Shown here one piece after another: positions 1,642-37,138 of a DNA stretch of 37,138 bases. The position numbers and the translations under genes are program-made. The notes under the pieces were generated by a model. The model did not search any database, was not told where the DNA came from, and saw only the letters and a program-made list of their open reading frames with translations. Origin of the DNA: a virus; the IMG/VR virus record IMGVR_UViG_3300050175_000026, positions 1-37,138 of that record; one strand, given 5' to 3'. Positions within the stretch are counted from its first letter, which is position 1. Every line of letters starts with the position of its first letter.

Positions 1642-3165
1642 ATGCCCTGGAATGGTAGCGGCAGTTTCATCAGGACGAACGGTGTCTTCAGCGGCGGCAC
1701 GGTGTGGGATCAGTCGGCCACGGCCGGGCGGCTGATCTTCTCCGACGACCACGACATCCATGACGAGGACATCGCCACCGGACTGGAAAACACGGTCACG
1801 CGCGACGGCCAGAACGTCCCGACTGCCGACCTTTCCATGGGCGGCTTCAAGCACACCAACGTCGGCAACGCCACGGCCCGCAACCAGTACGCGGTAACCG
1901 GCCAGGTCCAGGACAACGCCTACAACTATGCCACTTCAGTGGGCGGCACCGCAGACGCAATCACGATCACGGTAAGCCCGGCTATCTCCGCCTATGCAGA
2001 GGGGCAGTTCTTTTTCTTCAAGCCGTCCAGCAACAACACCGGCGCGACCACCCTATCGGTCTCCGGTCTCGCGGCAACGGCGATCAAGTATTATGGCAAC
2101 GACCTGCGCGCAAACGATCTCAAGTCGGGCGAGGCCGTGGGCGTCTTCTACGACGGCGGAAGCTTCCAGTTGCTGGACGTGGAAGTGATCACGACGCAGG
2201 GCGACCTGGTGCAGGGCGACGCAGACGGCTCACCCGAGGCCCTGGCGATCGGCAGCGACGGCCAGGCTCTGATCGCGCAGAGCGGCAAGGCGGCCTGGGG
2301 GGCGTCGCCCTCCCCGCCGAATTACATCTACGGCCTTGAGATCAGCAACAACAGCACGCTCCCGAACACGGATATCGACTTCACGGCTGGCGGCGCGCGC
2401 TCCGACGACAACACGGCCGACATTGTCGCAGCCGCGCTTACCAAGAAGCTCAACGCCAACTTTACCGCGGGCGACGAGGGCGGCATGCTGGATACCGGCA
2501 CGGTCGCCGCGAACAGCGTCTATAACCTCTACGCCATCGACGGAGCCGGGAAGAACGGCGACTATCTGGCAGTCAAGAAAGGCGGCACTCCCTCACTGCC
2601 GACCGGCTACACCGTCAAGCGCTTCATCGGCCGCATTCCGACCGATGGCTCCAGCAACATCACGGCTGACCAGATCACGCAGCAGCGCATCGACGGCCAG
2701 TATTACGACGCCTACATCGACACCGGCAGCGGCACCACAAAGACGGTGCGGGCCATGATGGACGGGCCGGACGAGATCACCCTAAACCTGAACGGGGTGT
2801 CTTGCGACGCGGTCTTCTCCATCCAGGTGCAGATCGGCGGGGATACCAGCATCGAGGTCACCGGCTACCGCAGCTTCGCCACCAACCTCGCCGGCAACGT
2901 GTCCTCGACCACGGCCTATCTACTCAACACCAGCACCGCGGCGACACTGCTGGACGGCGTGGTGCTGCTCAACCGCGAGAACGCCGCAGCAACCTCCTAC
3001 GTGCTCAGCACGTCCCTCGGCGGCAATGCCATCGCGATCGCGGGCGGCAGCAAGACGCTATCCGGTCAGGTTCTCACCGCCATGGATATCAGCCCCGACT
3101 CGGGCAACTTCGACGCCGGCAGTATCCGGGTCGCGGCCTTCCGGGCGGGGGCCTACGCGCCCTAG
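1642..3165 (+). CDS. Tail fibre / receptor-binding protein
   Basis: A 507-residue protein. About residues 35-85 carry the recurrent tail-fibre attachment pattern, with an acidic DHDIHDEDI stretch followed by a SMGGFKHTNVGNA segment like those in many phage fibre N-termini. The rest is Gly/Thr/Ser/Asn-rich with alternating beta-like residues, as expected of a trimeric fibre shaft and tip. No collagen repeats, chaperone domain or enzymatic motif are evident. It is the last large gene of the structural run. AGGG nine bases upstream supports the ATG. It probably forms the host-recognition appendage; the receptor cannot be inferred. Confidence 0.8.
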   Translation: MPWNGSGSFIRTNGVFSGGTVWDQSATAGRLIFSDDHDIHDEDIATGLENTVTRDGQNVPTADLSMGGFKHTNVGNATARNQYAVTGQVQDNAYNYATSVGGTADAITITVSPAISAYAEGQFFFFKPSSNNTGATTLSVSGLAATAIKYYGNDLRANDLKSGEAVGVFYDGGSFQLLDVEVITTQGDLVQGDADGSPEALAIGSDGQALIAQSGKAAWGASPSPPNYIYGLEISNNSTLPNTDIDFTAGGARSDDNTADIVAAALTKKLNANFTAGDEGGMLDTGTVAANSVYNLYAIDGAGKNGDYLAVKKGGTPSLPTGYTVKRFIGRIPTDGSSNITADQITQQRIDGQYYDAYIDTGSGTTKTVRAMMDGPDEITLNLNGVSCDAVFSIQVQIGGDTSIEVTGYRSFATNLAGNVSSTTAYLLNTSTAATLLDGVVLLNRENAAATSYVLSTSLGGNAIAIAGGSKTLSGQVLTAMDISPDSGNFDAGSIRVAAFRAGAYAP

Positions 3166-12323: not shown

Positions 12324-12988
12324 TGCCCCGTATCCCCCGCCGCCCACCAAAGCCCCCATTCTGGGACGCCGAGCCCGGGATCTGCCGCGGCTGTGGCCAG
12401 GAGTTCATTACAAAGGCCAACCAGAGGCACAGAGGGCGCCGCTGGTGCGCGGATTGTGCTGCGGGGTGGAAGGTAGCCGGGCACGTCCTGCGGGCGCGCG
12501 CAGCCGTCTTTCAGCGCGATCTGGGCGTGTGCCACGATTGCGGGCTGGACTGTACCTCATATGAGGTAGCAGGCACCGCCATTTCAGAAACGTATAGGGT
12601 ACAGATCAACCGCGAGCGCGCCCTAGAATGGTGCGAGCAAGTGTTAGCCAAGTCCGCCTATTCCCGTCTGTATGCTATCGACCTCGGCGACTGGCACGTT
12701 GACCACGCCATGCCTCTGCACCTGATCGATCGCGACAAGCCGGACGCCTGGCGCGAGTGGACGCTACCCAACCTGCGGACTCGCTGCCCAGCCTGTCATG
12801 GCGAGAAGACGACGAAAGAAGCCAAGGCGCGCGGCAAGGTGCGCCGGATTGGCAAGAAAGTACAATTCGGCGGCGCGAATGATACCAAACGGCCAAAAAG
12901 TAAGATCCCCCAGCGTGCCAATCCGTGGCCAGCCAGGGGCGCGCGCAAGATTCAAAGCAGAGGATTCCAAAAGAGGGGCGGCCGGTGA
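12323..12988 (+). CDS. HNH endonuclease
   Basis: A 221-residue protein. An N-terminal zinc knuckle (C21xxC24 and C42xxC45) precedes a complete HNH core: CHDC (70-73), then WHVDHAMPL (about 124-132) with the catalytic His pair, then Asn150 and CPACHGEKTTKEA (155-167). The C-terminal 50 residues are basic and probably bind DNA. HNH enzymes of this size cut or nick DNA and occur as free-standing homing-type or packaging-related enzymes. This one lies far from the terminase, among early genes, coupled on both sides. Confidence 0.85.
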   Translation: MPRIPRRPPKPPFWDAEPGICRGCGQEFITKANQRHRGRRWCADCAAGWKVAGHVLRARAAVFQRDLGVCHDCGLDCTSYEVAGTAISETYRVQINRERALEWCEQVLAKSAYSRLYAIDLGDWHVDHAMPLHLIDRDKPDAWREWTLPNLRTRCPACHGEKTTKEAKARGKVRRIGKKVQFGGANDTKRPKSKIPQRANPWPARGARKIQSRGFQKRGGR

Positions 12989-13783: not shown

Positions 13784-14260
13784 ATGAGCGTAAGGAATAA
13801 ACGCCTAGCCTGCAAGGGCAGGCCGTCGCTGTACACGCCAACCCAGGACGCTTTCATTCGCATGCACTACCCTACTCACAAGGACCGGCGCTGGATCGCC
13901 AACCAGATCGGGGTGCGGGTGTCACAGCTTGAATGCAGGGCCGCGCGGCTCGGGGTGACCCGGCCCAAGAAGGTGGGTGCCAAGGACGTGACGGGCGAGA
14001 AGCTGGAGAAGTTCAAGGCGGCCTTTCTTGGCGGTGCCACGAGCGGTGAGCTTGCCGCGTGGCTCGGCTGTTCAAAGGATACGGTGTGCAAGATCGCGCG
14101 CCGGCACGGGCTCAAGCGCGACACTGAGTATTTCCGCAAGGCTGCCAAGGCCGCGGCGGAGCGCAGGGCACAGGAGGGCGACACGCCCAGGTGCGACGAT
14201 CGCGAGATCTCCCGCATGTATGCCGGGCAGCGCTACGAGGATATGAGGCTGCGGTCATGA
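13784..14260 (+). CDS. Double helix-turn-helix DNA-binding protein, GcrA-N-like
   Basis: A 158-residue protein. Residues 16-60 (YTPTQDAFIRMHYPTHKDRR, WIANQIGVRVSQLECRAARL, then GVTR) form a homeodomain-type helix-turn-helix like the N-terminal domain of GcrA and related phage proteins. Residues 72-112 form a second one (FLGGATSGELAAWLGCSKDT, then VCKIARRHGLKR). The remainder is a basic helix. GAGGTGA precedes the ATG. It overlaps by four bases a gene encoding a GcrA-C-like zinc domain, so the two look like a split GcrA. It probably regulates transcription. Confidence 0.7.
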   Translation: MSVRNKRLACKGRPSLYTPTQDAFIRMHYPTHKDRRWIANQIGVRVSQLECRAARLGVTRPKKVGAKDVTGEKLEKFKAAFLGGATSGELAAWLGCSKDTVCKIARRHGLKRDTEYFRKAAKAAAERRAQEGDTPRCDDREISRMYAGQRYEDMRLRS

Positions 14261-14442: not shown

Positions 14443-14585
14443 TCGGACACCATGGGGAATACAGCTTGCTGGCCTGCCGAAAATGGAGTGCCCCTGCTCG
14501 TGCAAACCGTACCCCTCCAAATGGCGTCCTGTGCCAACTGGATTCCTCCAAAGACAGCTTGCTGGCCTGCAGGGAGGCGGAGTGA
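14439..14585 (+). CDS. Small hypothetical protein (48 aa) with internal repeat
   Basis: The frame is coupled at both ends (ATGA at 14439, TGATG at 14583-14587). It contains the 17-bp repeat ACAGCTTGCTGGCCTGC twice (14461 and 14554), giving SLLACRKW and SLLACREAE. The codon character is unremarkable. It may be a degenerate spacer that merely carries the next ribosome site. Confidence 0.4.
   Translation: MIGHHGEYSLLACRKWSAPARANRTPPNGVLCQLDSSKDSLLACREAE
14461..14477. repeat. 17-bp direct repeat, copy 1 (period 93)
   Basis: ACAGCTTGCTGGCCTGC is identical to 14554-14570. The second copy abuts AGGGAGGCGGAGTGATG, the start region of the SLOG gene. Confidence 0.8.
14554..14570. repeat. 17-bp direct repeat, copy 2
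   Basis: Identical to 14461-14477. It is followed by AGGGAGGCGGAGTGATG, which is nearly repeated at 14996-15012 before the next gene. Confidence 0.8.
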
Positions 14586-15010
14586 TGTTCGAAGTTTTGC
14601 TGAAGACCGGCGCCACATGGATCGTTTGCGGCGGTCGTGATTTCTCAGACGCTGACATGTTCAAGGCAGCCATGCGGGACATGCTCAGCCTCCGCGGCAT
14701 TCCGGCGCGAGTCGTCCACGGCGGGGCCAACGGCGCGGATAAAATGGCCAGAGATTGGGCAATGGAGCAAATCGGCAGTGCGTCGTGCTGTCCGGCTAAC
14801 TGGGACGTACATGGGAAAGCAGCCGGCCCGATCAGAAACCAAGCGATGGTTGACGACTACGGGGCTTCTCTCGTGGTTGCGTTCCCCGGCGGCCGAGGAA
14901 CGGCTGATCTAGTGCGCCGCGCCAGAGCGGCTGGAATTGACGTTGCCGAGATCGTGCCAAACGACCCACAAGAAAAGCCCCCGGGCCGGGCTTGCAGGAA
15001 GGCGGAGTGA
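14585..15010 (+). CDS. SLOG-fold protein, YspA/DUF2493-like
   Basis: A 141-residue protein. WIVCGGRDFSDADMF (residues 11-25), VVHGGANGADKMARDWA (about 42-58), the RNQAMVDDYGASLVVAFPGG stretch, and GTADLVRRARAAGI define the SLOG Rossmann-like domain of the YspA/DUF2493 type. These domains bind nucleotide-derived ligands; the phage role is unknown. GGAGG seven bases before ATG 14585 fixes the start. The last 14 residues (PQEKPPGRACRKAE) derive from a 23-bp repeat and a start cassette shared with the next gene, so the tail may be acquired. Confidence 0.8.
   Translation: MFEVLLKTGATWIVCGGRDFSDADMFKAAMRDMLSLRGIPARVVHGGANGADKMARDWAMEQIGSASCCPANWDVHGKAAGPIRNQAMVDDYGASLVVAFPGGRGTADLVRRARAAGIDVAEIVPNDPQEKPPGRACRKAE
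14965..14987. repeat. 23-bp direct repeat, copy 1
   Basis: The 23 bases here are identical to 15179-15201 (core AAGAAAAGCCCCCGGGCC). Copy 1 lies in the 3' end of the SLOG gene and forms a short AAGCCC/GGGCTT hairpin with the following bases. Confidence 0.85.
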
Positions 15011-15225
15011 TGGATGACCGCCAGCGCCTGGAGCTCTATGGACACGAGTCTGACATTCACATGGATTCGTGCAGCCTCTGCGGCATGTCAGGGCTTGAGG
15101 AGGTTCAGTCCGGCGTGCGGCTCTGCCCGATCTGGCGGACATGGAAGTTCCAGCTCGCGCGCCTGTGGCGGTGCTTGGCCCACAAGAAAAGCCCCCGGGC
15201 CGAAACCCGAGGGCTTAACTCTTGA
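15010..15225 (+). CDS. Small Cys-containing protein (71 aa)
   Basis: TGATG coupling to the SLOG gene and GGAAGG upstream support ATG 15010. A CSLC knuckle (residues 18-21) and a later Cys suggest metal binding; an aromatic basic region follows. The C-terminal KKSPRAETRGLNS is encoded by the second copy of the 23-bp repeat and its hairpin. An overlapping frame from 15014 is rejected. Function unknown. Confidence 0.6.
   Translation: MDDRQRLELYGHESDIHMDSCSLCGMSGLEEVQSGVRLCPIWRTWKFQLARLWRCLAHKKSPRAETRGLNS
15179..15201. repeat. 23-bp direct repeat, copy 2
   Basis: Identical to 14965-14987, 214 bases apart. This copy supplies the left arm of a terminator-like hairpin ending the 71-residue gene. 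Confidence 0.85.
15188..15225 (+). terminator. Terminator-like hairpin at the gene end
   Basis: AAGCCC-C-CGGG pairs with CCCG-A-GGGCTT around a CCGAAA loop, leaving one mismatch. AACTCTT follows, so the U-tract is weak. It ends the small Cys protein gene and precedes a 400-base gene-free stretch. Confidence 0.5.
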
Positions 15226-15632
15226 CGCAGCTCCCTGGCGAGAGGTAACGTCGTGATCTACACATCCACAGATAGGGCGAATGTAGCCCCTCGGTCCCGG
15301 CCTAGCAAGGTAAAACACGGGGCTACCGAGACCGCCTCCGGATTTGATCACCGGCAGCAAAGAGGACGGGCACCGAAGCCCACGTGCCCCGCGGGTCGTC
15401 TGAGAGGCCCCGGGACGCCGCCGAGTGACATTGACACTCTCTCCAGCGATGACCCCCGCCAGGCAGCTCCAAAGCCTGGATTGGCACTCCCCCGGGTGGC
15501 CGCAAGGCCTGGTCGCTTCTCAGATGCCTAAGGACCCCTCAACGGCTCCGGCAGACAGAGGCCCCCGCAAGGGGCTTCTATGCCTGCGTTTCCTAACTCA
15601 CCAACAGACAGCTAGCCTAAGGAGTTAATCTC
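15226..15632 (+). ncRNA. Gene-free stretch, candidate structured RNA
   Basis: No convincing gene lies here; a 92-residue frame from GTG 15253 has a low-complexity Pro/Arg/Ser-rich product. Several complementary arms occur: GTAGCCCC (15283-15290) with GGGGCTAC (15319-15326); GGGCAC (15368-15373) with GTGCCC (15384-15389); AGCGA (15445-15449) with TCGCT (15513-15517) enclosing CCAGGC/GCCTGG (15459/15474) and GGCC-GCAA-GGCC (15498-15509); and AGGCCCC-CGCAA-GGGGCTT (15559-15577). The GCAA loop is a GNRA tetraloop. It could be a long 5' leader of the DUF5131 gene or a separate RNA. Confidence 0.45.
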
Positions 15633-16601
15633 ATGGCTGACAACAGCAAGATAGAATGGACCGACGCGACCTGGAACCCGATTACCGGTTGCAGCGTCAT
15701 TTCCCCCGGATGCACCAACTGCTACGCGATGCGCCTTGCTGGCACGCGGCTGAAGGACCACCCCTCGCGCGCCGGATTGACGGACCCGAGCAAGGCTGGG
15801 CCAGTGTGGAATGGCAATCTGAAGTTCAACGAGCAGTGGCTTGACCAGCCTTTGCGCTGGCGTCGACCGCGGATGATCTTCGTCTGTGCGCATGGTGATC
15901 TCTTCCATGAGAAGGTGCCAGACGATTGGATCGATCAGGTCTTTGCCGTGACCGCAATGGCACCGCAACACGTCTTCCAGATCCTCACGAAGCGCGTGGA
16001 TCGCATGAGTTCCTACATCTTGGAATTGGCCAAGGCGCCAGCGGATCGCCTTCACCACGCTACCTTAGAGGCTGGCTTTGAGGACGAAGCGGGCTGCGCC
16101 GTCGCCAATTGGATTAACGGGTTTTCACGATGGCGGCACATGTCTGACGATAAGAATCCCCTTGATGGTAGCAAGCCGCGGTGGCCCCTACCGAACGTCT
16201 GGCTCGGCTTCTCTGCCGAGGATCAGCAGCGCTTTGACGAGCGGTGGCCACACGTCGGCCCGCTCGCCGGCGAGGGATGGGTCACCTGGCTCTCTGCCGA
16301 ACCGCTCCTGGGGCCGCTCGACATCGGAAATGGTGTCGCCTACGACGGAGAAGGTGGCTTTGACCCGCTCTACCCGAAGCTCGATTGGGTGGTCGCCGGC
16401 GGCGAGAGCGGGGCCGGCGCGCGGCCGATGCACCCGGATTGGCCCAGATCTCTCCGGGACCAGTGCCAGGCAGGCGGCGTGGCCTACCACTTCAAGCAGT
16501 GGGGGTCTTGGGATTCGGCCGGCTCTCACGTTGGAAAAAAGGCCGCTGGACGTGTCCTCGACGGCCGAACCTGGGACGAAATGCCGGGAGCAACCCAATG
16601 A
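15633..16601 (+). CDS. Phage Gp37/Gp68 family protein (DUF5131)
   Basis: A 322-residue protein. The opening (MADNSKIEWTDATWNPITGC), then PGCTNCYAMRLA, gives a C20-x6-C27-x2-C30 cluster. Later blocks include MIFVCAHGDLFHEKVPDDWI, FQILTKRVDRM, LPNVWLGFSAEDQ, WLSAEPLLGPLD, WVVAGGESGAGARPMHPDW and AYHFKQWGSW. All are hallmarks of the Gp37/Gp68 family, which resembles radical-SAM proteins with a three-cysteine iron-sulfur site. The reaction is not established. TAAGGAG precedes the ATG. It is coupled (ATGA) to the next gene and then to a PAPS-reductase-like gene, so they may form a modification module. Confidence 0.88.
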   Translation: MADNSKIEWTDATWNPITGCSVISPGCTNCYAMRLAGTRLKDHPSRAGLTDPSKAGPVWNGNLKFNEQWLDQPLRWRRPRMIFVCAHGDLFHEKVPDDWIDQVFAVTAMAPQHVFQILTKRVDRMSSYILELAKAPADRLHHATLEAGFEDEAGCAVANWINGFSRWRHMSDDKNPLDGSKPRWPLPNVWLGFSAEDQQRFDERWPHVGPLAGEGWVTWLSAEPLLGPLDIGNGVAYDGEGGFDPLYPKLDWVVAGGESGAGARPMHPDWPRSLRDQCQAGGVAYHFKQWGSWDSAGSHVGKKAAGRVLDGRTWDEMPGATQ

Positions 16602-17005
16602 CCGACTCTTTCCAAATGCACGACACCTTCCCCATGGACCAGGCCTACATCGACAAGGCCCGCAAGCGCGGCTTCGATCGCGAGGCAGCCCTGAAGGAGT
16701 TCGACGGCTTCAAGGCTTACTGGATCGCTCAGGGCAAGAGCCGCACGCCGCGAGGCTGGCTGCAATGCTGGGACAACCGCCTAGCCGCGCAAGCCCAGCA
16801 CCGTGCCACCTGCAACGGCATGCCGCGGAACCGCTTCGAGCGCCGGCCGCAGAACGACACGATCATCCCAGGCCCGCGCATGGTGTGGGTTGGTGGCATG
16901 GGCTACGACTTCCTGAAGATCCTCCCCCTCAAGCACAAGCAGGCAAGCGGCCAACCTCTAGACCCTGACGAGCAAGCAGCACTGGAGGCATGGAATGCAG
17001 GTTAA
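16598..17005 (+). CDS. DnaT-like / replication-associated domain protein
   Basis: A 135-residue protein. Residues 14-60 (MDQAYIDKARKRGFDREAAL, KEFDGFKAYWIAQGKSRTPR, then GWLQCWDNRL) match the short helical module found at the C-terminus of phage replication proteins and in DnaT (a ...F..Y....G....DW...W..W pattern). The rest is basic and ends in DPDEQAALEAWNAG. It may bind single-stranded DNA or recruit the host primosome. The assignment rests on this pattern and is moderate. ATGA coupling to the DUF5131 gene. Confidence 0.55.
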   Translation: MTDSFQMHDTFPMDQAYIDKARKRGFDREAALKEFDGFKAYWIAQGKSRTPRGWLQCWDNRLAAQAQHRATCNGMPRNRFERRPQNDTIIPGPRMVWVGGMGYDFLKILPLKHKQASGQPLDPDEQAALEAWNAG

Positions 17006-17750
17006 GCGCGACGAAAACGGCATCGCCCATATCGTCTCATTGTCTGGTGGCAAAGACTCAACAGCCATGGCCCTTCGGTTGGCTGAGTTGTATCCGGATC
17101 GGCCCTTCACCTACATCTGTACGCCAACCGGCAATGAGCTGCCCGCCATGTTCGATCACTGGCGGAACCTCGGGAACATTCTCGGCAAGCCCTTGATTCC
17201 AATCATGGCTCACACAGGTTTGGAGGGGATCTGCGACGAGCAAGGCGCGCTGCCTAATTTCCGAATGCGGTTCTGTACGCGGCTATTGAAGCTTGCGCCA
17301 GCGGGCCGCTTTCTGGTGTCGCAAATGCCTTGCATTGCATACGTGGGGCTGAGAGCGGACGAAGAAATGCGCGAGGGCGCGCGGCGCGGCGGAGACTATC
17401 TGCCGGCGGACATTGAAGGCGTTCAGCAGGTCTACCCCATGCGGGAATGGGGCTGGGGGCTTGCGGAGGTTCTGGGGTTCCTTGACGAGCGGGGCATTGA
17501 TATCCCGGCGCGGACTGATTGTGCCTGGTGCTTCTATCAGACGCTCTACGAATGGTATCGACTTTGGGCCGATCACTTGGCGCTGTACCTTGCTGGCGAA
17601 GACATGGAGGCCCGCTTTGGCTACAGCTTCCGTTCGCCTCAGCGCGATACGCAGCCGACTTTTCTCAAGGATCTGCGCGCTAAGTTCGAAGCCGGGTATA
17701 TCCCAAAACAGCGCAAGCGACCTGACATGTGCGGCGTTTGCGCCCGGTAG
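16995..17750 (+). CDS. PAPS reductase / DndC-like ATP-pyrophosphatase family protein
   Basis: A 251-residue protein. The P-loop SGGKDST (residues 17-23), a following helix, YICTPTGNELP, and later RFCTRLLK, GLRADEEMREGARRGGDY, DCAWCFYQT and a C-terminal MCGVC identify the phosphoadenosine phosphosulfate reductase-like N-type ATP pyrophosphatase family. These adenylate a substrate for sulfur or other group transfer; phage members are common but of unknown substrate. The start overlaps the upstream gene by 11 bases. CACTGGAGG before it resembles the cassette before the next gene. Confidence 0.85.
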   Translation: MQVKRDENGIAHIVSLSGGKDSTAMALRLAELYPDRPFTYICTPTGNELPAMFDHWRNLGNILGKPLIPIMAHTGLEGICDEQGALPNFRMRFCTRLLKLAPAGRFLVSQMPCIAYVGLRADEEMREGARRGGDYLPADIEGVQQVYPMREWGWGLAEVLGFLDERGIDIPARTDCAWCFYQTLYEWYRLWADHLALYLAGEDMEARFGYSFRSPQRDTQPTFLKDLRAKFEAGYIPKQRKRPDMCGVCAR

Positions 17751-23229: not shown

Positions 23230-23694
23230 ATGACACCCAAACAGCGCCGCTTCATCGATGAGTACCTCATAGACGGCAACGCCACACAGGCCGCGATCAG
23301 GGCGGGGTACGCTGGAGGCAAGGCCGCTGAGGTAACTGGGCACCGCTTGCTGTGCAATGCTAAGATAGCCTCTGAAATTGCCAAGGGCGAGAAAGCACGC
23401 CAGAAACGCACGCTGATCGACCAGGATTGGGTCATCAAGAAGATCGTGCAGACAATTGAGGACTGCGAGAGCGGCGAGAACCGTAACCCGCACGCCGTCC
23501 TCAAGGGCACGGAGCTCCTGGGCCGGACGCTGGCCATGTTCACCGACGTGAGCAAGGCGACGGTCACGCACGAATTCGAGAAACTGCCAGAAACTGAGCT
23601 GGATGAGCAAATTAGACGACAAGAGGTTGTACTTGGCTCTGTTGCGCGAGAAGCACCGAAGGCTCGCAGCAACGGATCTGGTCAAGTTCACTGA
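23230..23694 (+). CDS. terS: Terminase small subunit
   Basis: A 154-residue protein. The N-terminal LTPKQ-type opening (MTPKQRRFIDEYLIDGNATQ, AAIRAGYAGGKAAEVTGHRL, LCNAKIASEIAK) is the terminase_2 family helix-turn-helix that recognises the packaging site and guides the large subunit. The C-terminus (FEKLPETELDEQIRRQEVVL) would form the oligomer contact. It overlaps the large subunit gene by 92 bases. AAAGG about ten bases upstream. Confidence 0.88.
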   Translation: MTPKQRRFIDEYLIDGNATQAAIRAGYAGGKAAEVTGHRLLCNAKIASEIAKGEKARQKRTLIDQDWVIKKIVQTIEDCESGENRNPHAVLKGTELLGRTLAMFTDVSKATVTHEFEKLPETELDEQIRRQEVVLGSVAREAPKARSNGSGQVH

Positions 23695-25078
23695 GTACAC
23701 CTCACGGCCTTACCAGACTGCGGAGCATCACCGGGAGATCGCTGCGCACCTGGAGGCCGTGGAGCGTGGCGAGATTGATCGGCTCATGGTGATTGAGCCC
23801 CCGCGGCACGGCAAATCCGAGCTCGTCTCCCGCCGTTTCCCGGCCTGGTATCTAGGCAAGAACCCCACCCACGGCGTGATCGGCGCCAGCTACAACAGCG
23901 ACCTGGCCATGGACTTCGGCCGTGAGGTGCGCGGAATCGTGCGGTCTCCGGAGTGCCAAGAGGTGTTCCATGGTCTCGAACTGGCCTCGGACAGCAAGGC
24001 AGCGGATCGCTGGCATACAGCGCAGGGCGGTGGCTACGTGGCTGCCGGCGTGGGTACGGCTGTAACTGGCCGTGACAGCGACCTTTTCCTGATCGATGAC
24101 CCTCTGAAGGACCGCGAGGAGGCCAACTCTCAGCGCATGCGCGACCGGTTGCACGGCTGGTACAGCGCCGTGGTCCAGTCACGCCTGCCCAGGGCAATCA
24201 TCCTGGTGCAAACAAGGTGGCACGAGGACGACCTGGCGGGGCGCCTGATAGCCGACATGGCCGAGGGTGGGGACAAGTGGGTGGTCCTGCATCACCCCGC
24301 CCTGAGGGACGGCAACGCCCTGTGGCCCGAGAAATACCCCGCCGAGCAACTGGAGCGCATCCGCAGGAACATGCTGCCGAGCGACTGGTCCGCGCTGTTT
24401 CAGGGCCAGCCTACCCCCGACGAGGGCGACTTCTTCCAGGACCACTGGTTCCGCTGGTACGACACCGCGCCCGAGCACCTGCACAAGTACGGCGCTTCGG
24501 ACTACGCGATCACCGCCAGGGACGGGGACTACACGGCGCACGGCGTGGCCGGCGTGGACCCTGACGACAACATCTACCTGCTCGACATCGCCCGCGGCCA
24601 GTGGGATTCCTACGAGGCCGTGGAAGCCGGGATCTCCCTCATGCAGCGCCACAGCCACCCCCGGCCGATCATGGCGTGGATCGAGGAGAAGGCCCAGATC
24701 GAGAAGGCGATTGGCCCGTTTATCACCAAGCGCTTGAAGGAATTGAGCTTCTACCCATACCGCGTGGCCATGCCGCTCATGGGCGACAAGCAGGCCAGGG
24801 CTCAGTCGTTTCGGGCCAGGGCAGCCCAGGGCAAGGTTTATCTTCCCAAGAATGCCCCGTGGGTGCATGATTTGCTTAGCGAATTGCTGGTCTTCCCGAA
24901 CGGGACGAACGACGACCAGGTTGACATGTGTGGTATGTTCGGGCGGGTGCTGGACGGGCTGGTATCTGCGAGGAGGCCCAAGCCCAAGCCTGCCGACGCC
25001 CCGCTGACGCTGGACCGGCTGATCGCCGAGGAAGAGGCGCACAGCTCCTCGAAAAGCCGCAGGATGAGAGGGATTTGA
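23603..25078 (+). CDS. terL: Terminase large subunit
   Basis: A 491-residue protein. Walker A EPPRHGKSE (65-73), Walker B LFLIDDP (161-167) and coupling LVQTRWHEDDLAGRL (about 193-207) form the packaging ATPase. The C-terminal nuclease domain includes DYAITARDGDYTAHGVAGVD, IEEKAQIEKAIG and NDDQVDMCGM with acidic metal ligands. It pumps DNA into the prohead at the portal and cuts it. The start lies inside the small-subunit gene in another frame, a common arrangement. The length is normal for the family. Confidence 0.93.
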   Translation: MSKLDDKRLYLALLREKHRRLAATDLVKFTEYTSRPYQTAEHHREIAAHLEAVERGEIDRLMVIEPPRHGKSELVSRRFPAWYLGKNPTHGVIGASYNSDLAMDFGREVRGIVRSPECQEVFHGLELASDSKAADRWHTAQGGGYVAAGVGTAVTGRDSDLFLIDDPLKDREEANSQRMRDRLHGWYSAVVQSRLPRAIILVQTRWHEDDLAGRLIADMAEGGDKWVVLHHPALRDGNALWPEKYPAEQLERIRRNMLPSDWSALFQGQPTPDEGDFFQDHWFRWYDTAPEHLHKYGASDYAITARDGDYTAHGVAGVDPDDNIYLLDIARGQWDSYEAVEAGISLMQRHSHPRPIMAWIEEKAQIEKAIGPFITKRLKELSFYPYRVAMPLMGDKQARAQSFRARAAQGKVYLPKNAPWVHDLLSELLVFPNGTNDDQVDMCGMFGRVLDGLVSARRPKPKPADAPLTLDRLIAEEEAHSSSKSRRMRGI

Positions 25079-25371: not shown

Positions 25372-25659
25372 ATGGCCAAGCGAACTATTTCGTTCAAGCC
25401 GACGCCGGAGTGCGAAGTGCAGATCGCGGATCTCATGGGCCGCTGGAAATGCGACCGGACGACGGCCATGATTCGGGCGATTGCCAAAGCGCATGCCGGC
25501 GGCAACTCTGAAATGGCGACGGCCAGCCCGCCGAGACTGTCTCCTGGCGGGTTGACGAGGGGTGCAACGGTCAAGCTGTCCAGCCGACATGTCGACCAAG
25601 ACAAGCTCGCTGCCTTCCAGCGCAAGGCCGGCATGGGCGGAGTGAAGCAGCGTGGCTGA
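25372..25659 (+). CDS. Ribbon-helix-helix protein in the packaging operon
   Basis: A 95-residue protein. MAKRTISFKPTPECEVQIAD followed by LMGRWKCDRTTAMIRAIAKA gives a strand and two helices of an Arc/CopG-like DNA-binding domain. The C-terminal half is Ser/Pro-rich then basic. CGGAGG nine bases upstream fixes ATG 25372. Two blocks of tandem GTAATAC repeats lie immediately upstream, the usual arrangement for an autoregulated RHH repressor. Its location between terminase and portal suggests it tunes head-gene expression. Confidence 0.68.
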   Translation: MAKRTISFKPTPECEVQIADLMGRWKCDRTTAMIRAIAKAHAGGNSEMATASPPRLSPGGLTRGATVKLSSRHVDQDKLAAFQRKAGMGGVKQRG

Positions 25660-27874
25660 GAAAAACCCCACTTCAGGGGCTGCGGCCTACTGGAACTCGC
25701 AGATCAAGAACCAGCGCAAGGAAACCCGCTACGTGCGCTGGCTCCAGGTTGGGCAGCAGTTCTACGACCGCTACCGGCTGGAGTCGGACGGGCTCTACAT
25801 GAGCAACAGCATGAACGCCGGCGGGGTGCAGTCCCGCATGGTCTACAATCTGTTGTGGTCGAACGTCCAGACGCTCAAGCCCATGCTTTACAGCCGCTTG
25901 CCCGAGCCCTTCGTGTCCCGGCGCAATGGGGCAGGTGATCCGGCGGCGCGGATGGCCTCGCAGATCGCCGAGCGTAGTGTCTCCATGGACCTGGAGCGGG
26001 ACGACTTTGACGACCAGGCCGAGGGCGTGGCGCTGGACTATGCGATCACCGGCCGGGGCACGATCAGGGCCACCTACAACAGCACCGTGGTGAACAGCCG
26101 CATACCGATCAACAAGGAGATTCGTGACGGCGAGGACTTCCCGCGGTTCTTCATGGACAACGGGGAGGAGATCCCCCAGGACGGCATTGAGCGCGACGAC
26201 CGTGGGTTCTTCACGCTGGACCCGCAGACCACGGACGAGCGCGCGCCGCTGCTGTACCACAACTGGAAGGATTTCCTGATCGGCCCGGGGCGGAAGTGGT
26301 CCGAGGTGCAGCGGAACGGCTGGATCGGCTATCGCACCTACATGACCAAGCCGGAGGCGGCCAAGCGCTTCGGCAAGAACGCGGCCAACTCGCTCAGCTA
26401 CAGCTTCACGCCTTATCGCCTGGATACCATGGGGAGCGACAATGCGAACGCCTCGATCCCCAGCAAGACGACGATCAAGCTGGCCGAGATCTGGGAAATC
26501 TGGGACGCGGCGACCCGCAAGGTCTTCTGGATCAGCGAGGGTTTTCCGGGTCTGCTGGACGAGGAAGACGACTTCCTGAACCTGGAGGGTTTCTTCAACA
26601 CGCCCCGGCCGCTCATGGGCACCTTCACCAACGACACTCTGACACCCATCCCGGACTATGCCGAGTACCACAGCCAGGCCACGGAACTCGACCAGATCAC
26701 GGCCAAGATCGAGCAGATCGTGGAGGATATCTATGTTGGTGGCGTCTATGACGGCAACGTGCCGGATCTAGGACGGGCTCTACGTGACAAGAATGGCGGC
26801 TGGTATCCCTCCGACAACTTCGCGGCGCTCATGTCATCCGGCGGCATTGCCGGGGCTGTTCAGGAGCTTGACGTTGCCAAGAAAGCGGCAGCGGTTCGCG
26901 ACCTGTACCAGCACCGTCAGGCCGTGAAGGCCGACGCCGACGAAATGTCCGGGATCATCGACCTGCACCGCGGCCAGCAGGCGCAGAGGGACGAGACGCT
27001 CGGCCAGTCGGAAATTCGGAGCAGTGTCGGCGGCCTGCGGATCAACGAGAAGCAGCGCGACTTCCAGCGCTACATGCGCGACGCCCTGCGGCTCAAGTCG
27101 CAGATCGTGGTCGACAAGTTCGACGCCGAGCGCCTGCTGGAAATGGCCGATCTCCAGGATCTGCTGAACCAGTCATCGAAGGTATCAGCCCTGCGCAACA
27201 TGGCGGAAAGCCAGCAAGGACAGAAGCAGTTGCAGAATCCCCAGGCGCTGCAGAAGTTCCAGATCGCCATGCAGACGGCCCAGGCCGAGCAAATGGCCTT
27301 GATCAACCAGGCCGTGGCGCTCTTGAAGAACGACAGAATGAGGTCCTTCAAGCTGGATATCGAGACCGACGCGACGGTGGCGCTGGACGAAGGGGCGGAC
27401 CAGGAGCGTTCGGTGCAGTTCGTGGACGGCCTGGCGAACTTCCTGGAGCGGATCATGAATTCCCCGGCCGTGCAGGGCAATCCGCCGCTGCAGGCGCTGT
27501 CGGGCGAGGTCCTCATGTTCCTGGTCCGCAAGGCGCACGTGGGCCGCTCGCTCGAGGAGAAGATCGAGCAGGCAATCCAGGACATGGTCACCGCCCCGCC
27601 GCAGCCGGCCAAGCCGGACCCGCTTGAGGTTGCCGCACAATCGCAGGCGCAGAAGAACCAAGCCGATGTCGTGCGCGATCAGCAGAAGAACCGGATCGAC
27701 GCTTTCGAGGCTGAGACGGATCGCATGGATACCCTGATCAAGGCCAGGCAGACGCAGATCGACGCGGTCGAGGCGGCCAGCGACGCGGAGCGCAAGGACC
27801 TGGAGACGGCCAACAAGATCCTGGACAGCGAGGACAACAACCTCAGGGGCAATGGAGTGCTGGGAAATGCGTAG
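25652..27874 (+). CDS. Portal protein
   Basis: A 740-residue protein of the podovirus portal type: WNSQIKNQRKETRYVRWLQV near the start, a central beta/alpha core (LYHNWKDFLIGPGRKWSEVQ, WIGYRTYMTKPEAAKRFG, IKLAEIWEIWDAATRKVFWI), and a Gln/Lys-rich helical C-terminus (AQSQAQKNQADVVRDQQKNR) typical of the barrel. Twelve copies would form the DNA channel at the capsid vertex. GTG start overlapping the RHH gene by eight bases, with GGAG nine bases upstream. Size and position after terminase are as expected. Confidence 0.9.
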   Translation: MAEKNPTSGAAAYWNSQIKNQRKETRYVRWLQVGQQFYDRYRLESDGLYMSNSMNAGGVQSRMVYNLLWSNVQTLKPMLYSRLPEPFVSRRNGAGDPAARMASQIAERSVSMDLERDDFDDQAEGVALDYAITGRGTIRATYNSTVVNSRIPINKEIRDGEDFPRFFMDNGEEIPQDGIERDDRGFFTLDPQTTDERAPLLYHNWKDFLIGPGRKWSEVQRNGWIGYRTYMTKPEAAKRFGKNAANSLSYSFTPYRLDTMGSDNANASIPSKTTIKLAEIWEIWDAATRKVFWISEGFPGLLDEEDDFLNLEGFFNTPRPLMGTFTNDTLTPIPDYAEYHSQATELDQITAKIEQIVEDIYVGGVYDGNVPDLGRALRDKNGGWYPSDNFAALMSSGGIAGAVQELDVAKKAAAVRDLYQHRQAVKADADEMSGIIDLHRGQQAQRDETLGQSEIRSSVGGLRINEKQRDFQRYMRDALRLKSQIVVDKFDAERLLEMADLQDLLNQSSKVSALRNMAESQQGQKQLQNPQALQKFQIAMQTAQAEQMALINQAVALLKNDRMRSFKLDIETDATVALDEGADQERSVQFVDGLANFLERIMNSPAVQGNPPLQALSGEVLMFLVRKAHVGRSLEEKIEQAIQDMVTAPPQPAKPDPLEVAAQSQAQKNQADVVRDQQKNRIDAFEAETDRMDTLIKARQTQIDAVEAASDAERKDLETANKILDSEDNNLRGNGVLGNA

Positions 27875-29789: not shown

Positions 29790-30782
29790 ATGGGCGCAAA
29801 TCCCAATTATGACGACGTGTTCACCACGACCATCGAGTCTCGGGCTCGGGTCCTGCGGGACAACGTCACCAAGAACATTGCCCTGCTCATGCGCATGAAC
29901 GAGCGCGGCAACATCCGTCCGGTTTCCGGCGGTTCGAAGATCCTGGAAGAAATGGACTTCGACGAGAACAGCACCTATAAGCGCTACTCCGGGGGTGAGG
30001 CCCTCGACACCGGCGTCTCAGAGGTGCTCACGGCTTCCGAGTACGCCTGGAAGCAGATCGCCATCACGATCGAGATCACCGGCCTTGAGGGCGACGTTCA
30101 GAACGCCGGGCCGGAAGCCTTCATCAACCTGCTCTCCGGGCGCGTCACCAACGCCGAGCGCACCATGCGCAACGGTATCGGCGCGGATCTCTATTCGGAC
30201 GGCACCGCGGACAGTGGCAAGCAGATCGACGGCTTGCAGCTCCAGGTCGCCGACGATCCCACCACCGGCACGGTTGGCGGTATCGACCGCGCCACGATCA
30301 CCAAGTGGCGCAACTACACGAAGACGGAAGGGGCCGGCGGCGGCTCCACCCCGGCGATCACCACCAGCAACATTCAGGACCTCATGAACGAGGTGTACCT
30401 GAATGTCAGCCGGAACACCGATCACCCGGACCTGATCTTCTCCGATAACAACCTGTATAAGACCTACTGGTCTTCGCTCCAGGCCCAGCAGCGCTTCACC
30501 AACTCGCGGCTTGCGGAGCGGGGCTTCGAAAACCTGCGCTTCGTCAATGCTGACGTGATCTTCGACGGTGGCCTCGGCGGGTCCTGCCCGGCGAACCACA
30601 TGTACTTCCTCAACACGGACTTCCTGCACTACAGGCCGCACCGCTCGCGGAACATCGTCCCGTTGAGGGACCGTCACATCGAAACCGCCGACGTTATGCG
30701 GCGCTTCCTGGTGTGGGCCGGCAACCTGACGATGTCGAATGCCCAGCTCCAGGGCGTCCTGATCGACGGCCTGAGCGCCTAA
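29790..30782 (+). CDS. Major capsid protein
   Basis: A 330-residue protein of HK97 fold by pattern: an N-terminal helical arm (FTTTIESRARVLRDNVTKNI), E-loop (GGSKILEEMDFDENSTYKRY), spine helix near ERTMRNGIGADLYSDGTADS, A-domain (HPDLIFSDNNLYKTYWSSLQ, RFVNADVIFDGGLGGSCPAN) and a C-terminal beta end (FLVWAGNLTMSNAQLQGVLI). Length and location after the scaffold fit. GAGGAG nine bases upstream. A strong hairpin follows the gene, as usual after capsid genes. Confidence 0.9.
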   Translation: MGANPNYDDVFTTTIESRARVLRDNVTKNIALLMRMNERGNIRPVSGGSKILEEMDFDENSTYKRYSGGEALDTGVSEVLTASEYAWKQIAITIEITGLEGDVQNAGPEAFINLLSGRVTNAERTMRNGIGADLYSDGTADSGKQIDGLQLQVADDPTTGTVGGIDRATITKWRNYTKTEGAGGGSTPAITTSNIQDLMNEVYLNVSRNTDHPDLIFSDNNLYKTYWSSLQAQQRFTNSRLAERGFENLRFVNADVIFDGGLGGSCPANHMYFLNTDFLHYRPHRSRNIVPLRDRHIETADVMRRFLVWAGNLTMSNAQLQGVLIDGLSA

Positions 30783-35161: not shown

Positions 35162-36547
35162 ATGGTGGATTTCTTCTCTCGCCCTTCCGGCACGACGCTG
35201 GCAACGCCCCAGCGGATTGCCAGAAACCAGCAGCTATCGAGCGCCCTGGCACAGACCGCCCTGGCCGGCGGCCCGATCCAGAGCCCCCTGCAGGGTGTGG
35301 GGCGCCTGGCCCGCGCGCTCGCCTCGCGGACGCTATCCGGACGGGCCGAGGACCAGCAGAAGGCCCGCCAGGACGCGGCAAACCGCGCTCTCATGGAATT
35401 GCTGGGCGGTGGGGGCGTAGGCGGAGCCCCGGCGGGGGCAGGAGTGCCGATCGTCCCCGGAAGTGCCCCAGGAGGCGCTCCGACGGCCGGTGGTACGCCA
35501 GGCCTGACGCAGCTTATCCAGACGCAGCAGAAGTTCCCGGAGCTGAGCGGGACGTTGGCACCCTTGATCGCGGCGCGGATGAAGCCGACCGACCCGACCA
35601 AGGGGGTCGTCGTCGGCGCGGGCGGCCGGCTTGTCAATCCGGTGACCGGCGAGGTGATCGCCGAGGGCGGTCCAAGGGCAATGGCATTGCGTGAGATCGC
35701 GGACCCAAGCAGCCCGACCGGAACGCGGCTGGTGCCGGTCGCGGAGGCAGCCGGGAAGCCGGGGCCGCCGGGCTCCAGCGAGCGCTTCGAGACGATCACC
35801 ACCCCGGACGGCCGCACGATCACGCGCCTGGTGCGCGGACGCGGCGCCGGAGCCGGTGGCGAGGCGGCAGAGCTGACCAAGCCGACCACCACCAGCCTGG
35901 AAAAGAACATTGTCCAGGCCAACGAACGGCTGGCAAGAATCCGCAATATCCGGGAGAGCTTCGATCCGGCCTTCCTCAACCTGCCGAACCAGATGTTCAC
36001 CAAGGGCGCGGCGATGGCCGAGCGCTTCGGTGTCGAGCTCGGGCCGGAGACCAAGCAGCGGGTCGCGGAGTTCACGGAGTTCCGGACCAACACCTTGCAG
36101 AACCTGAACCGGACCCTGAACGAGCTTTCCGGCGCGGCTGTGAGCCCCGCGGAGGCCGAGCGCCTGAAGGCCGAGCTCCCCACGGAAACCGACTCGCCCA
36201 CGGAATTCGCGGCCAAGGTGCAGAATATCGAGCGCCAGCTGGAGGCTGCCATTGCCCGGAACCAGCAGCTCCTGGAAGGCGGTGTCAGAGAGCTCAAGTT
36301 CGGCAAGAACGGCGAAATCCTGAACGCGCCTTCCCTGGAAGAGTTCATGGTGCGCCAGGACGAACAGCAGAATGTTTCACGTGAAACAACGCAGCCGACT
36401 GCCGCGGACCTTGGAGGGGCGCCGGAAGGAACGGGGCGGTTCTCCGACATGGACGCAGCGCAGATCAAGGGGGTGCCCCCAGAAGATCTGACGCGCGACG
36501 AGGCAATCCAGCTTCTGCGCCGCATGGACGAGCTTGGGGTGGAGTAA
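35162..36547 (+). CDS. Internal virion protein with embedded parS
   Basis: A 461-residue protein. The N-terminal 110 residues are Arg/Ala/Gly-rich, followed by a Gly/Pro-rich linker, a beta segment with RFETITTPDGRTITRLVRG (about 210-228), and a helical region (NIVQANERLARIRNIRESFD; QNIERQLEAAIARNQQLLEG). The C-terminal region includes a QQNVSRETTQPTAADLGG linker whose codons contain a perfect 16-bp parS (36373-36388). It overlaps the next gene as TAATG. No enzyme motif. It is probably an ejection protein by position. Confidence 0.7.
   Translation: MVDFFSRPSGTTLATPQRIARNQQLSSALAQTALAGGPIQSPLQGVGRLARALASRTLSGRAEDQQKARQDAANRALMELLGGGGVGGAPAGAGVPIVPGSAPGGAPTAGGTPGLTQLIQTQQKFPELSGTLAPLIAARMKPTDPTKGVVVGAGGRLVNPVTGEVIAEGGPRAMALREIADPSSPTGTRLVPVAEAAGKPGPPGSSERFETITTPDGRTITRLVRGRGAGAGGEAAELTKPTTTSLEKNIVQANERLARIRNIRESFDPAFLNLPNQMFTKGAAMAERFGVELGPETKQRVAEFTEFRTNTLQNLNRTLNELSGAAVSPAEAERLKAELPTETDSPTEFAAKVQNIERQLEAAIARNQQLLEGGVRELKFGKNGEILNAPSLEEFMVRQDEQQNVSRETTQPTAADLGGAPEGTGRFSDMDAAQIKGVPPEDLTRDEAIQLLRRMDELGVE
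36373..36388. promoter_or_regulatory. parS: Perfect parS (ParB-binding) site
   Basis: TGTTTCACGTGAAACA is a perfect 16-bp palindrome equal to the consensus chromosomal parS bound by ParB/Spo0J proteins in bacteria, including alphaproteobacteria. It lies inside the coding sequence of an internal virion protein, in a linker. No ParA or ParB gene is present in this genome. Chance occurrence of a given 16-mer in 37 kb is of the order of one in 100,000. Confidence 0.8.
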
Positions 36548-37138
36548 TGGCGACCAGGGAAGAGCTTCTTGCCAAGATCAGGGGTGCCGCGCAGTCCTCG
36601 GCGGAGGCCGCGCCATCAATGCGCGAGATCCTTCAGCAGCGCATTGCCGAAGCCGCGGTGCCGCCGATCCCGCAGCCCAGGGGCGTGCCAGGTCCGGAGG
36701 GGGAGTTCGGCGTGGGGCGCACGGCGCGCGGTGCGCTGCAGCTCGGGCTTGCCGGGCTTGAAGGGGGGACCCTCGGGCTGGCCCCGGAGGTCGTCGCGGC
36801 TGGCAAGGCGGTTGCAGGCAACCTTGGCGTGGAAGGACAGCCCACCGGGTTCGGCGAGGCCCTGGCCGAGGTAGAGGAGACCATGAACCGCATCCCGGCC
36901 GGGACCAGGACATTCGGGAACCTTGTTGGCGGTGCCGGGCTTGGATCCGCGGGCGCCGTACCGCGCACCTTGGCCCAGGCCGCAGGGCTTGGGGCGGTTA
37001 CCGGCGGCGTGGCCGGGCTTGGGTTCGCCGAGGGTGGGCTTGCGGAGCGGGCGCCCGCTGCCGCGCTTGGCGCCGGGCTTGGCGGCCTCGGCGGTGCTGC
37101 CGGGCAGGGGCTCGCCCAGGGTGTCGGATCGCTTGTTG
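36547..37138 (+). CDS. Large internal virion (ejection) protein, 5' part
   Basis: The ATG overlaps the preceding stop as TAATG. The first 197 codons run to the contig end and continue at base 128, giving a total of about 652 residues. The N-terminus is helical (REELLAKIRGAAQSSAEAAP; MREILQQRIAEAAVPPIPQP), then a long Gly/Ala/Leu region (GRTARGALQLGLAGLEGGTL; GNLVGGAGLGSAGAVPRTLA), which could insert into a membrane. The repeated GGGCTT-type codons make this stretch low-complexity. The role as an ejection protein is inferred from position and composition. Confidence 0.75.
   Translation, partial: MATREELLAKIRGAAQSSAEAAPSMREILQQRIAEAAVPPIPQPRGVPGPEGEFGVGRTARGALQLGLAGLEGGTLGLAPEVVAAGKAVAGNLGVEGQPTGFGEALAEVEETMNRIPAGTRTFGNLVGGAGLGSAGAVPRTLAQAAGLGAVTGGVAGLGFAEGGLAERAPAAALGAGLGGLGGAAGQGLAQGVGSLV
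37012..37138. repeat. Terminal direct repeat, right copy (circular closure)
   Basis: This is the exact second copy of bases 1-127. It encodes a Gly/Ala/Leu-rich stretch of the internal virion protein whose start codon is at 36547. Base 37138 corresponds to base 127, and translation continues in frame at 128. Confidence 0.93.

Follow-up and report, generated by a model that had tools for sequence, protein, structure and literature searches.

An orphan chromosomal-type parS site in a podovirus genome and its host-matched counterparts in unrelated phages

Introduction

Why would a phage genome that encodes no segregation proteins carry, inside one of its genes, a perfect copy of the bacterial chromosomal parS site? 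The question arises from a 37,138-nucleotide stretch of viral DNA (IMG/VR record IMGVR_UViG_3300050175_000026, positions 1 to 37,138; hereafter the window), for which a sequence-only reading had proposed a new kind of maintenance element that may let the phage use host ParABS to segregate as an episome. ParB is a CTP-binding protein that loads at parS, closes into a clamp and spreads; ParA is engaged by the clamps that accumulate (PMC12704722). A plasmid can be stabilised by parAB together with one perfect parS (PMC4368675), and injected lambda DNA with an engineered parS is coated by ParB within minutes while the infection proceeds normally (PMC13190303). In the open-access literature searched, parS is described in phages only together with phage-encoded ParAB or as an engineered label, and the use of host ParB is described through phi29 and Spo0J. 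Here, we ask whether the site in the window is part of a wider pattern, which protein reads it, and what a phage might gain from it.

Results

A perfect parS site in a complete podovirus genome

In this virus record, positions 1-127 are repeated directly at 37012-37138 (127 bp), as in a circular or terminally redundant assembly, which indicates a circular and complete genome of 37,011 bp. The phage is a podovirus. On the plus strand it encodes the small (23230-23694; Pfam Terminase_2, E 8e-25) and large (23603-25078; Pfam Terminase_6N/6C, PHROG 38) terminase subunits, a portal protein (25652-27874; PHROG 12082, E 4e-129), a major capsid protein (29790-30782; PHROG 9953, E 2e-100) with at most 48% identity to that of Myxococcus phage Mx8, and a virion structural protein that is probably the tail spike (1642-3165; PHROG 13989), with the gene order of Podoviridae genome MW202691.

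At 36373-36388, assigned to neither strand, lies TGTTTCACGTGAAACA, an exact 16-bp match to the palindromic consensus parS of the chromosomal ParABS system (ParB/Spo0J and ParA/Soj) and of ParB biochemistry (PMC7383237; PMC7022226). The first-order expectation for this exact 16-mer in the window is 2.4e-6, and the whole window holds no second site within three mismatches. A second perfect 16-bp palindrome, TACCTCATATGAGGTA, is present at 12553-12568 inside an HNH-endonuclease-like open reading frame, and it has no match among the 403 loci that we compared.

Domain searches of the window genome recovered neither ParB_N nor the ParA-type AAA_31 domain, and neither a tyrosine integrase nor a serine recombinase, in agreement with the sequence-only reading that parA, parB and integrase genes are absent. 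The window thus does not encode a self-contained phage or plasmid ParABS. The lack of an integrase is what would be expected of a phage-plasmid, but a recognisable repressor and RepA are also missing among the open reading frames tested. In contrast to chromosomal ParABS, the window phage therefore encodes neither ParA nor ParB and has one site, located inside a phage gene.

The host of the window phage is plausibly an alphaproteobacterium. The hosts of the cultured relatives are Myxococcus, Stenotrophomonas, Bradyrhizobium, Rhizobium and Ruegeria, and a search of genomic contigs with the portal protein returned only Candidimonas (28% identity) and Endomicrobiia (24%), which indicates no host. 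A 158-aa protein (13784-14260) has a weak, sub-threshold match to GcrA (E 0.004), an alphaproteobacterial cell-cycle regulator family, and offers a slight host hint. A run of genes at 14483-17750 encodes YspA/SLOG, DUF5131, DnaT-like and PAPS-reductase domains.

The site lies in a linker of a probable ejection protein

The parS site falls within the C-terminal linker of a 461-aa protein (35162-36547, plus strand), where the codons AAT GTT TCA CGT GAA ACA encode NVSRET at residues 404-409. GTT, TCA, CGT and ACA are rare codons in the window genome, and the probability of the parS spelling given NVSRET and the genome's codon usage is 5e-6, so the DNA spelling is not dictated by the peptide; this figure bears on that point only and is not independent of the 2.4e-6 expectation. 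The linker is predicted to be disordered, as residues 407-427 have pLDDT below 50 in a single-sequence model of low overall confidence.

The sequence-only reading had called the gene around parS a virion gene. The site is indeed inside this open reading frame, but the protein matches no Pfam or PHROG family, and a virion role comes from gene order and weak P22-like homology. Two distant homologues, with about 31% identity over a third of the protein, are found in Podoviridae MW202691 and MW202785. Because both lie between the tail-fibre and tail-spike genes of P22-like podoviruses, the 461-aa protein is a probable P22-like internal or ejection protein. The next gene on the plus strand also encodes a probable ejection protein (652 aa); its start overlaps the preceding stop codon as TAATG, and it runs from 36547 as an open frame across the circular join, with its 5′ part at 36547-37138 and its 3′ part, which matches PHROG 5880, at 1-1494. 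A search of IMG/VR yielded no close relative of the 461-aa protein, and the two distant homologues, too few and too divergent for an alignment to reveal conservation at parS, both lack the linker.

parS is sporadic in the family of the window phage

Relatives of the window phage provide a second view of the site. Related capsids (37-56% identity) are encoded in 50 records, of which one carries a parS allele, TGTTCCACGTGAAACA, at a different place in the genome. Among 45 portal relatives, three contain a match to parS with at most two mismatches, and one of these matches is exact. No site within two mismatches is present in the cultured relatives Mx8, ppBjS10J-1 and BUCT555. P22-like and Mx8-like podoviruses share their gene order with the window, with capsid identities of at most 48% and portal identities of 24-29% among cultured phages, but the relatives checked lack parS, unlike the window. 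On the sequences compared, parS is therefore sporadic in this family rather than an essential trait, and the idea of a conserved maintenance element of the phage family does not hold among its capsid and portal relatives. The window site was probably gained recently, and it is likely to be of current use to the phage.

A site that occurs in 1 of 50 capsid relatives, whose conservation in the window cannot be shown and which was picked out by a reader scanning many windows, might also be a palindrome that arose by chance and has no role in this phage. We consider this improbable, given the expectation of about 2e-6 in the window and the counts and placement of parS in other phages presented below.

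parS is enriched in phages over control palindromes

A scan of IMG/VR found at least 120 loci with parS, whereas two control palindromes with dinucleotides identical to those of parS occurred in 11 and 5 loci. This comparison, which serves as the correction for the search over many windows, suggests that about one in ten or fewer of the IMG/VR parS matches are due to chance, and the chance share would be lower still at the G+C content of the window. The INPHARED collection (50,697 phage records, 2.3 Gb) is cleaner than IMG/VR and gave a sharper result. Exact TGTTTCACGTGAAACA is present in 286 records, which are not independent since 87 of them are Listeria phages, at 824 strand-wise places or about 412 sites, against a chance expectation of about 0.5. 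Four control palindromes, two with dinucleotides identical to parS and two derived from parS by symmetric changes, were found in 0 records each.

The carriers listed by name come from many lineages, among them the Listeria P100-like and Bacillus phi29-like phages, phages of Lactobacillus, Gordonia, Microbacterium, Arthrobacter, Clavibacter, Butyrivibrio, Roseobacter, Vibrio, Enterococcus and Glutamicibacter, microviruses and inoviruses. Most of the carriers checked have no ParB domain of their own. The ParB_N domain was found in 2 of 50 IMG/VR parS records, one of them above the cut-off, and in 4 of 47 records of a second set, in which nine of the ten complete public carriers lack it. The exception is Microbacterium phage Quhwah, whose ParB-like gene (gp88; L228:24536-25195) is distant from its parS; there, the phage's own protein rather than host ParB may be the reader.

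These data bear on whether parS in viral contigs could reflect host contamination or recently acquired chromosomal DNA. A chromosomal origin is possible for some of the short contigs in IMG/VR, and a few loci have MFHVKH-type starts. Against this, 286 public phage records have parS, ParB_N is rare in parS contigs (the 2 of 50 above), sites lie within recognisable phage genes, and the window itself is a complete circular phage. Contamination is ruled out for the window and likewise for many of the carriers, and as an explanation of the pattern we regard it as exceedingly improbable. Orphan parS in phages is real and widespread, and the window phage, an uncultured podovirus, is one instance of this group. 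The suggestion that the window holds a new kind of element is not supported in that form, as parS is not unique to the window and hundreds of phages have it, many of them in coding linkers.

Phage alleles resemble those of host ParB systems

Chromosomal parS has more than one allele. In P. aeruginosa and P. putida it reads TGTTCCACGTGGAACA; Bacillus (B. subtilis) and Vibrio chromosome I have TGTTNCACGTGAAACA (PMC7022226; PMC4368675). In INPHARED, TGTTCCACGTGGAACA occurs in 58 records, with Pseudomonas phages as the largest group (17 of 58), and Pseudomonas is outside the ten commonest names among TGTTTCACGTGAAACA carriers, each listed name accounting for at least 6 of the 286. One-mismatch sites are mainly of one kind, with TGTTCCACGTGAAACA making up 18 of 28 in the loci examined. 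By its sequence, this variant would keep a ParB site and fits the Bacillus parS consensus. One observation does not fit host matching. Klebsiella jumbo phage K64-1 (AB897757) carries a Pseudomonas-type parS at 62462-62477 in a baseplate wedge gene, and to our knowledge Klebsiella chromosomes have no ParABS.

Across phages, the occurrence and the alleles of parS thus track ParB specificity and not chance. Enrichment across the datasets, together with the agreement of phage and host alleles, makes a strong case that host ParB reads the site, as the sequence-only reading had expected, and we hold this to be very likely.

Placement of parS within other phages

Where IMG/VR parS sites lie inside long open reading frames, they are read in the VSRET frame in 41 cases and in the FHVK frame in 13. 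The proteins with VSRET linkers include an endolysin, a head-assembly protein, a similar 244-aa protein, a head-tail adaptor and a DarB-like giant protein (loci L094:4945, L112:244, L054:3089, L099:423 and L003:12708). The NVSRET linker of the window is therefore a typical placement and not a unique one, and a placement common to so many other phages is a further argument against a chance palindrome. The earlier description of a centromere in a coding linker without phage-encoded partners is accurate for the window with respect to the site, the missing Par genes and the NVSRET linker.

A gene family of Microbacterium phages shows how the DNA word behaves as the surrounding protein changes. Seven of ten homologues have a parS allele in a variable linker. 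The exact site, read as DVSRET, is present in Quhwah, NoodlelyBoi, Ariadne and Teamocil. Metamorphoo (exact), RobsFeet (TGTTCCACGTGAAACA) and Tyrumbra (TGTTCCACGTGGAACA) carry an allele at a non-aligned position of the same gene; Jayden, Merry and Margaery have none. Where the sites align, they use the same VSRET frame, and parS is kept though the linker diverges. Fixed-column conservation scoring of this gene was uninformative because parS shifts within the linker, and it is the recurrence at non-aligned positions that is informative.

In marine podoviruses with portals distantly related to that of the window, 412 kb of sequence holds 18 exact sites and a further 6 with one mismatch. These lie at several locations, in a count that includes some near-identical loci, and control palindromes are absent from the same 412 kb within one mismatch. 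Among these phages (L230-L309), parS can lie exactly between convergent stop codons (TAA-parS-TTA) at various places in a mosaic region, for example at L236:2715 and, in L230, directly after a 215-aa gene. Some of the genomes have two parS sites about 270-410 bp apart.

Sites between convergent stop codons, with changes in the central four bases, are what might be expected of an RNA hairpin or terminator, or of another regulator's operator sharing the palindrome, and a weak 6-bp hairpin (-3.9 kcal/mol) can form from the exact palindrome. However, control palindromes of equal hairpin energy (-4.0) are absent from the INPHARED phages, and the commonest variant, TGTTCCACGTGAAACA, destroys the hairpin on one strand. 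We rejected the terminator or hairpin reading on these two grounds. In addition, many sites lie within reading frames and the alleles follow host ParB preference, which leaves a shared hairpin or operator very unlikely.

In inoviruses, up to six exact copies of parS occur within 5.9 kb. In those from rodent faeces, for example L223 (PQ006149), sites are located at 635, 662, 1414, 2857, 4096 and 5628, several of them directly 3′ of stop codons. The double-stranded DNA carriers examined have mostly one to four sites and not arrays.

Discussion

Our analysis indicates that the parS of the window belongs to a set of host-type sites found across phages that mostly lack Par genes. We infer that the ParB of the window's host binds the window site, and that positioning or retention of the phage DNA, rather than sequestration of ParB, is the benefit. 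In such a mechanism, parS on the injected phage DNA would be recognised by host ParB dimers, which would close into CTP-dependent clamps and slide along the phage genome. Host ParA, with SMC where present, would then treat the ParB-coated genome like an origin region, so that it would be tethered to the nucleoid and positioned, and retained or inherited by daughter cells if the infection stalls. The phage would contribute only a DNA site, encoded in a protein linker that tolerates VSRET. That the window parS is functional in this way, with loading of host ParB positioning or retaining the phage DNA, is the reading we favour, as somewhat more likely than not. Given that ParB binds, retention or positioning is the somewhat more probable benefit when set against titration or protection.

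Hitch-hiking on host ParB thus remains the favoured part of the sequence-only reading, but its proposal of an episome does not extend to phages in general. Many carriers appear virulent, including P100 and the phi29-like B103, which are regarded as strictly virulent. This is a poor fit to segregation, so episome segregation is not the general purpose of these sites, and we rejected lysogenic partition in that role for the same reason.

Virulence at high copy number instead suits a decoy, in which replicating parS genomes titrate host ParB, disturb origin segregation or SMC loading and thereby free host resources. The evidence for a ParB reader and for enrichment is identical under a decoy and under hitch-hiking, and although each genome has few sites (1-6), the copies multiply during infection. 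Nevertheless, several hosts can do without parB (PMC7022226), and most double-stranded DNA carriers examined have one to four sites and not arrays. The densest arrays are instead those of the inoviruses, usually chronic and non-lytic phages for which harm to the host would be counter-productive. Inoviruses usually persist without lysis, and their carriage of multiple sites therefore favours a benefit over sabotage. We consider a decoy unlikely, if the least so of the alternatives to hitch-hiking.

A coat of ParB, with recruited SMC, could also shield or compact the DNA of an incoming or replicating phage and so guard it from nucleases or defence systems, or it could modulate transcription of the phage genes. 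ParB spreading generally reaches kilobases, and the sites of Vibrio phi 3, Clavibacter CMP1 and Gordonia Woes are near DNA ends or the terminal repeat, where such a coat might be of use. Positions vary widely, however, and are mid-genome in Lactobacillus, Microbacterium and other phages, and circular single-stranded phages are carriers as well, making a protective or regulatory coat a rather improbable purpose. We think it reasonably probable that host-matched orphan parS, intergenic or in VSRET linkers, is a general and independently evolved trait of tailed phages, microviruses and inoviruses that serves to load host ParB onto the viral genome and position it.

The parS site itself and one case of a phage using host ParB were already known. 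In that case, as described where Meijer et al. 2005 is cited in PMC9437464, the phi29 genome is carried into spores by host ParB, Spo0J. On that description, phi29 is a phage without its own ParAB that exploits host ParB, and it is the nearest precedent for the window, which likewise has no phage Par proteins and a host-type parS. The phi29 relative B103 has one exact parS and one TGTTTCACGTGGAACA site. As far as the citing text goes, phi29 differs in having a spore-forming Bacillus host and entrapment coupled to Spo0A, whereas the window implies no spore-former. The extrachromosomal prophages RedRock and Miko likewise partition phage DNA through parS, but with ParA and ParB of phage origin, and their parS loci are 8-bp direct repeats unlike the chromosomal palindrome (PMC7157519). 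In the open-access literature we found no description of orphan parS as a general feature of phages, nor of host-matched sites across unrelated phages and in coding linkers, and an earlier description elsewhere is possible.

Phages seem to borrow the chromosome-handling machinery of their hosts far more often than the searched literature describes. Loading of host ParB on hundreds of phage genomes would make segregation proteins a common interface of infection, and this can be tested in cultured carriers such as B. subtilis phage B103, Gordonia phage Woes and Microbacterium phage Quhwah. Loading of this kind would also provide a natural readout for imaging infection. The resemblance of phage to host alleles would make the parS allele of a phage a simple sequence clue to its host group. 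For phages without Par genes, such as the podovirus of the window, a single host-type site would be a route to being positioned or retained in the cell.
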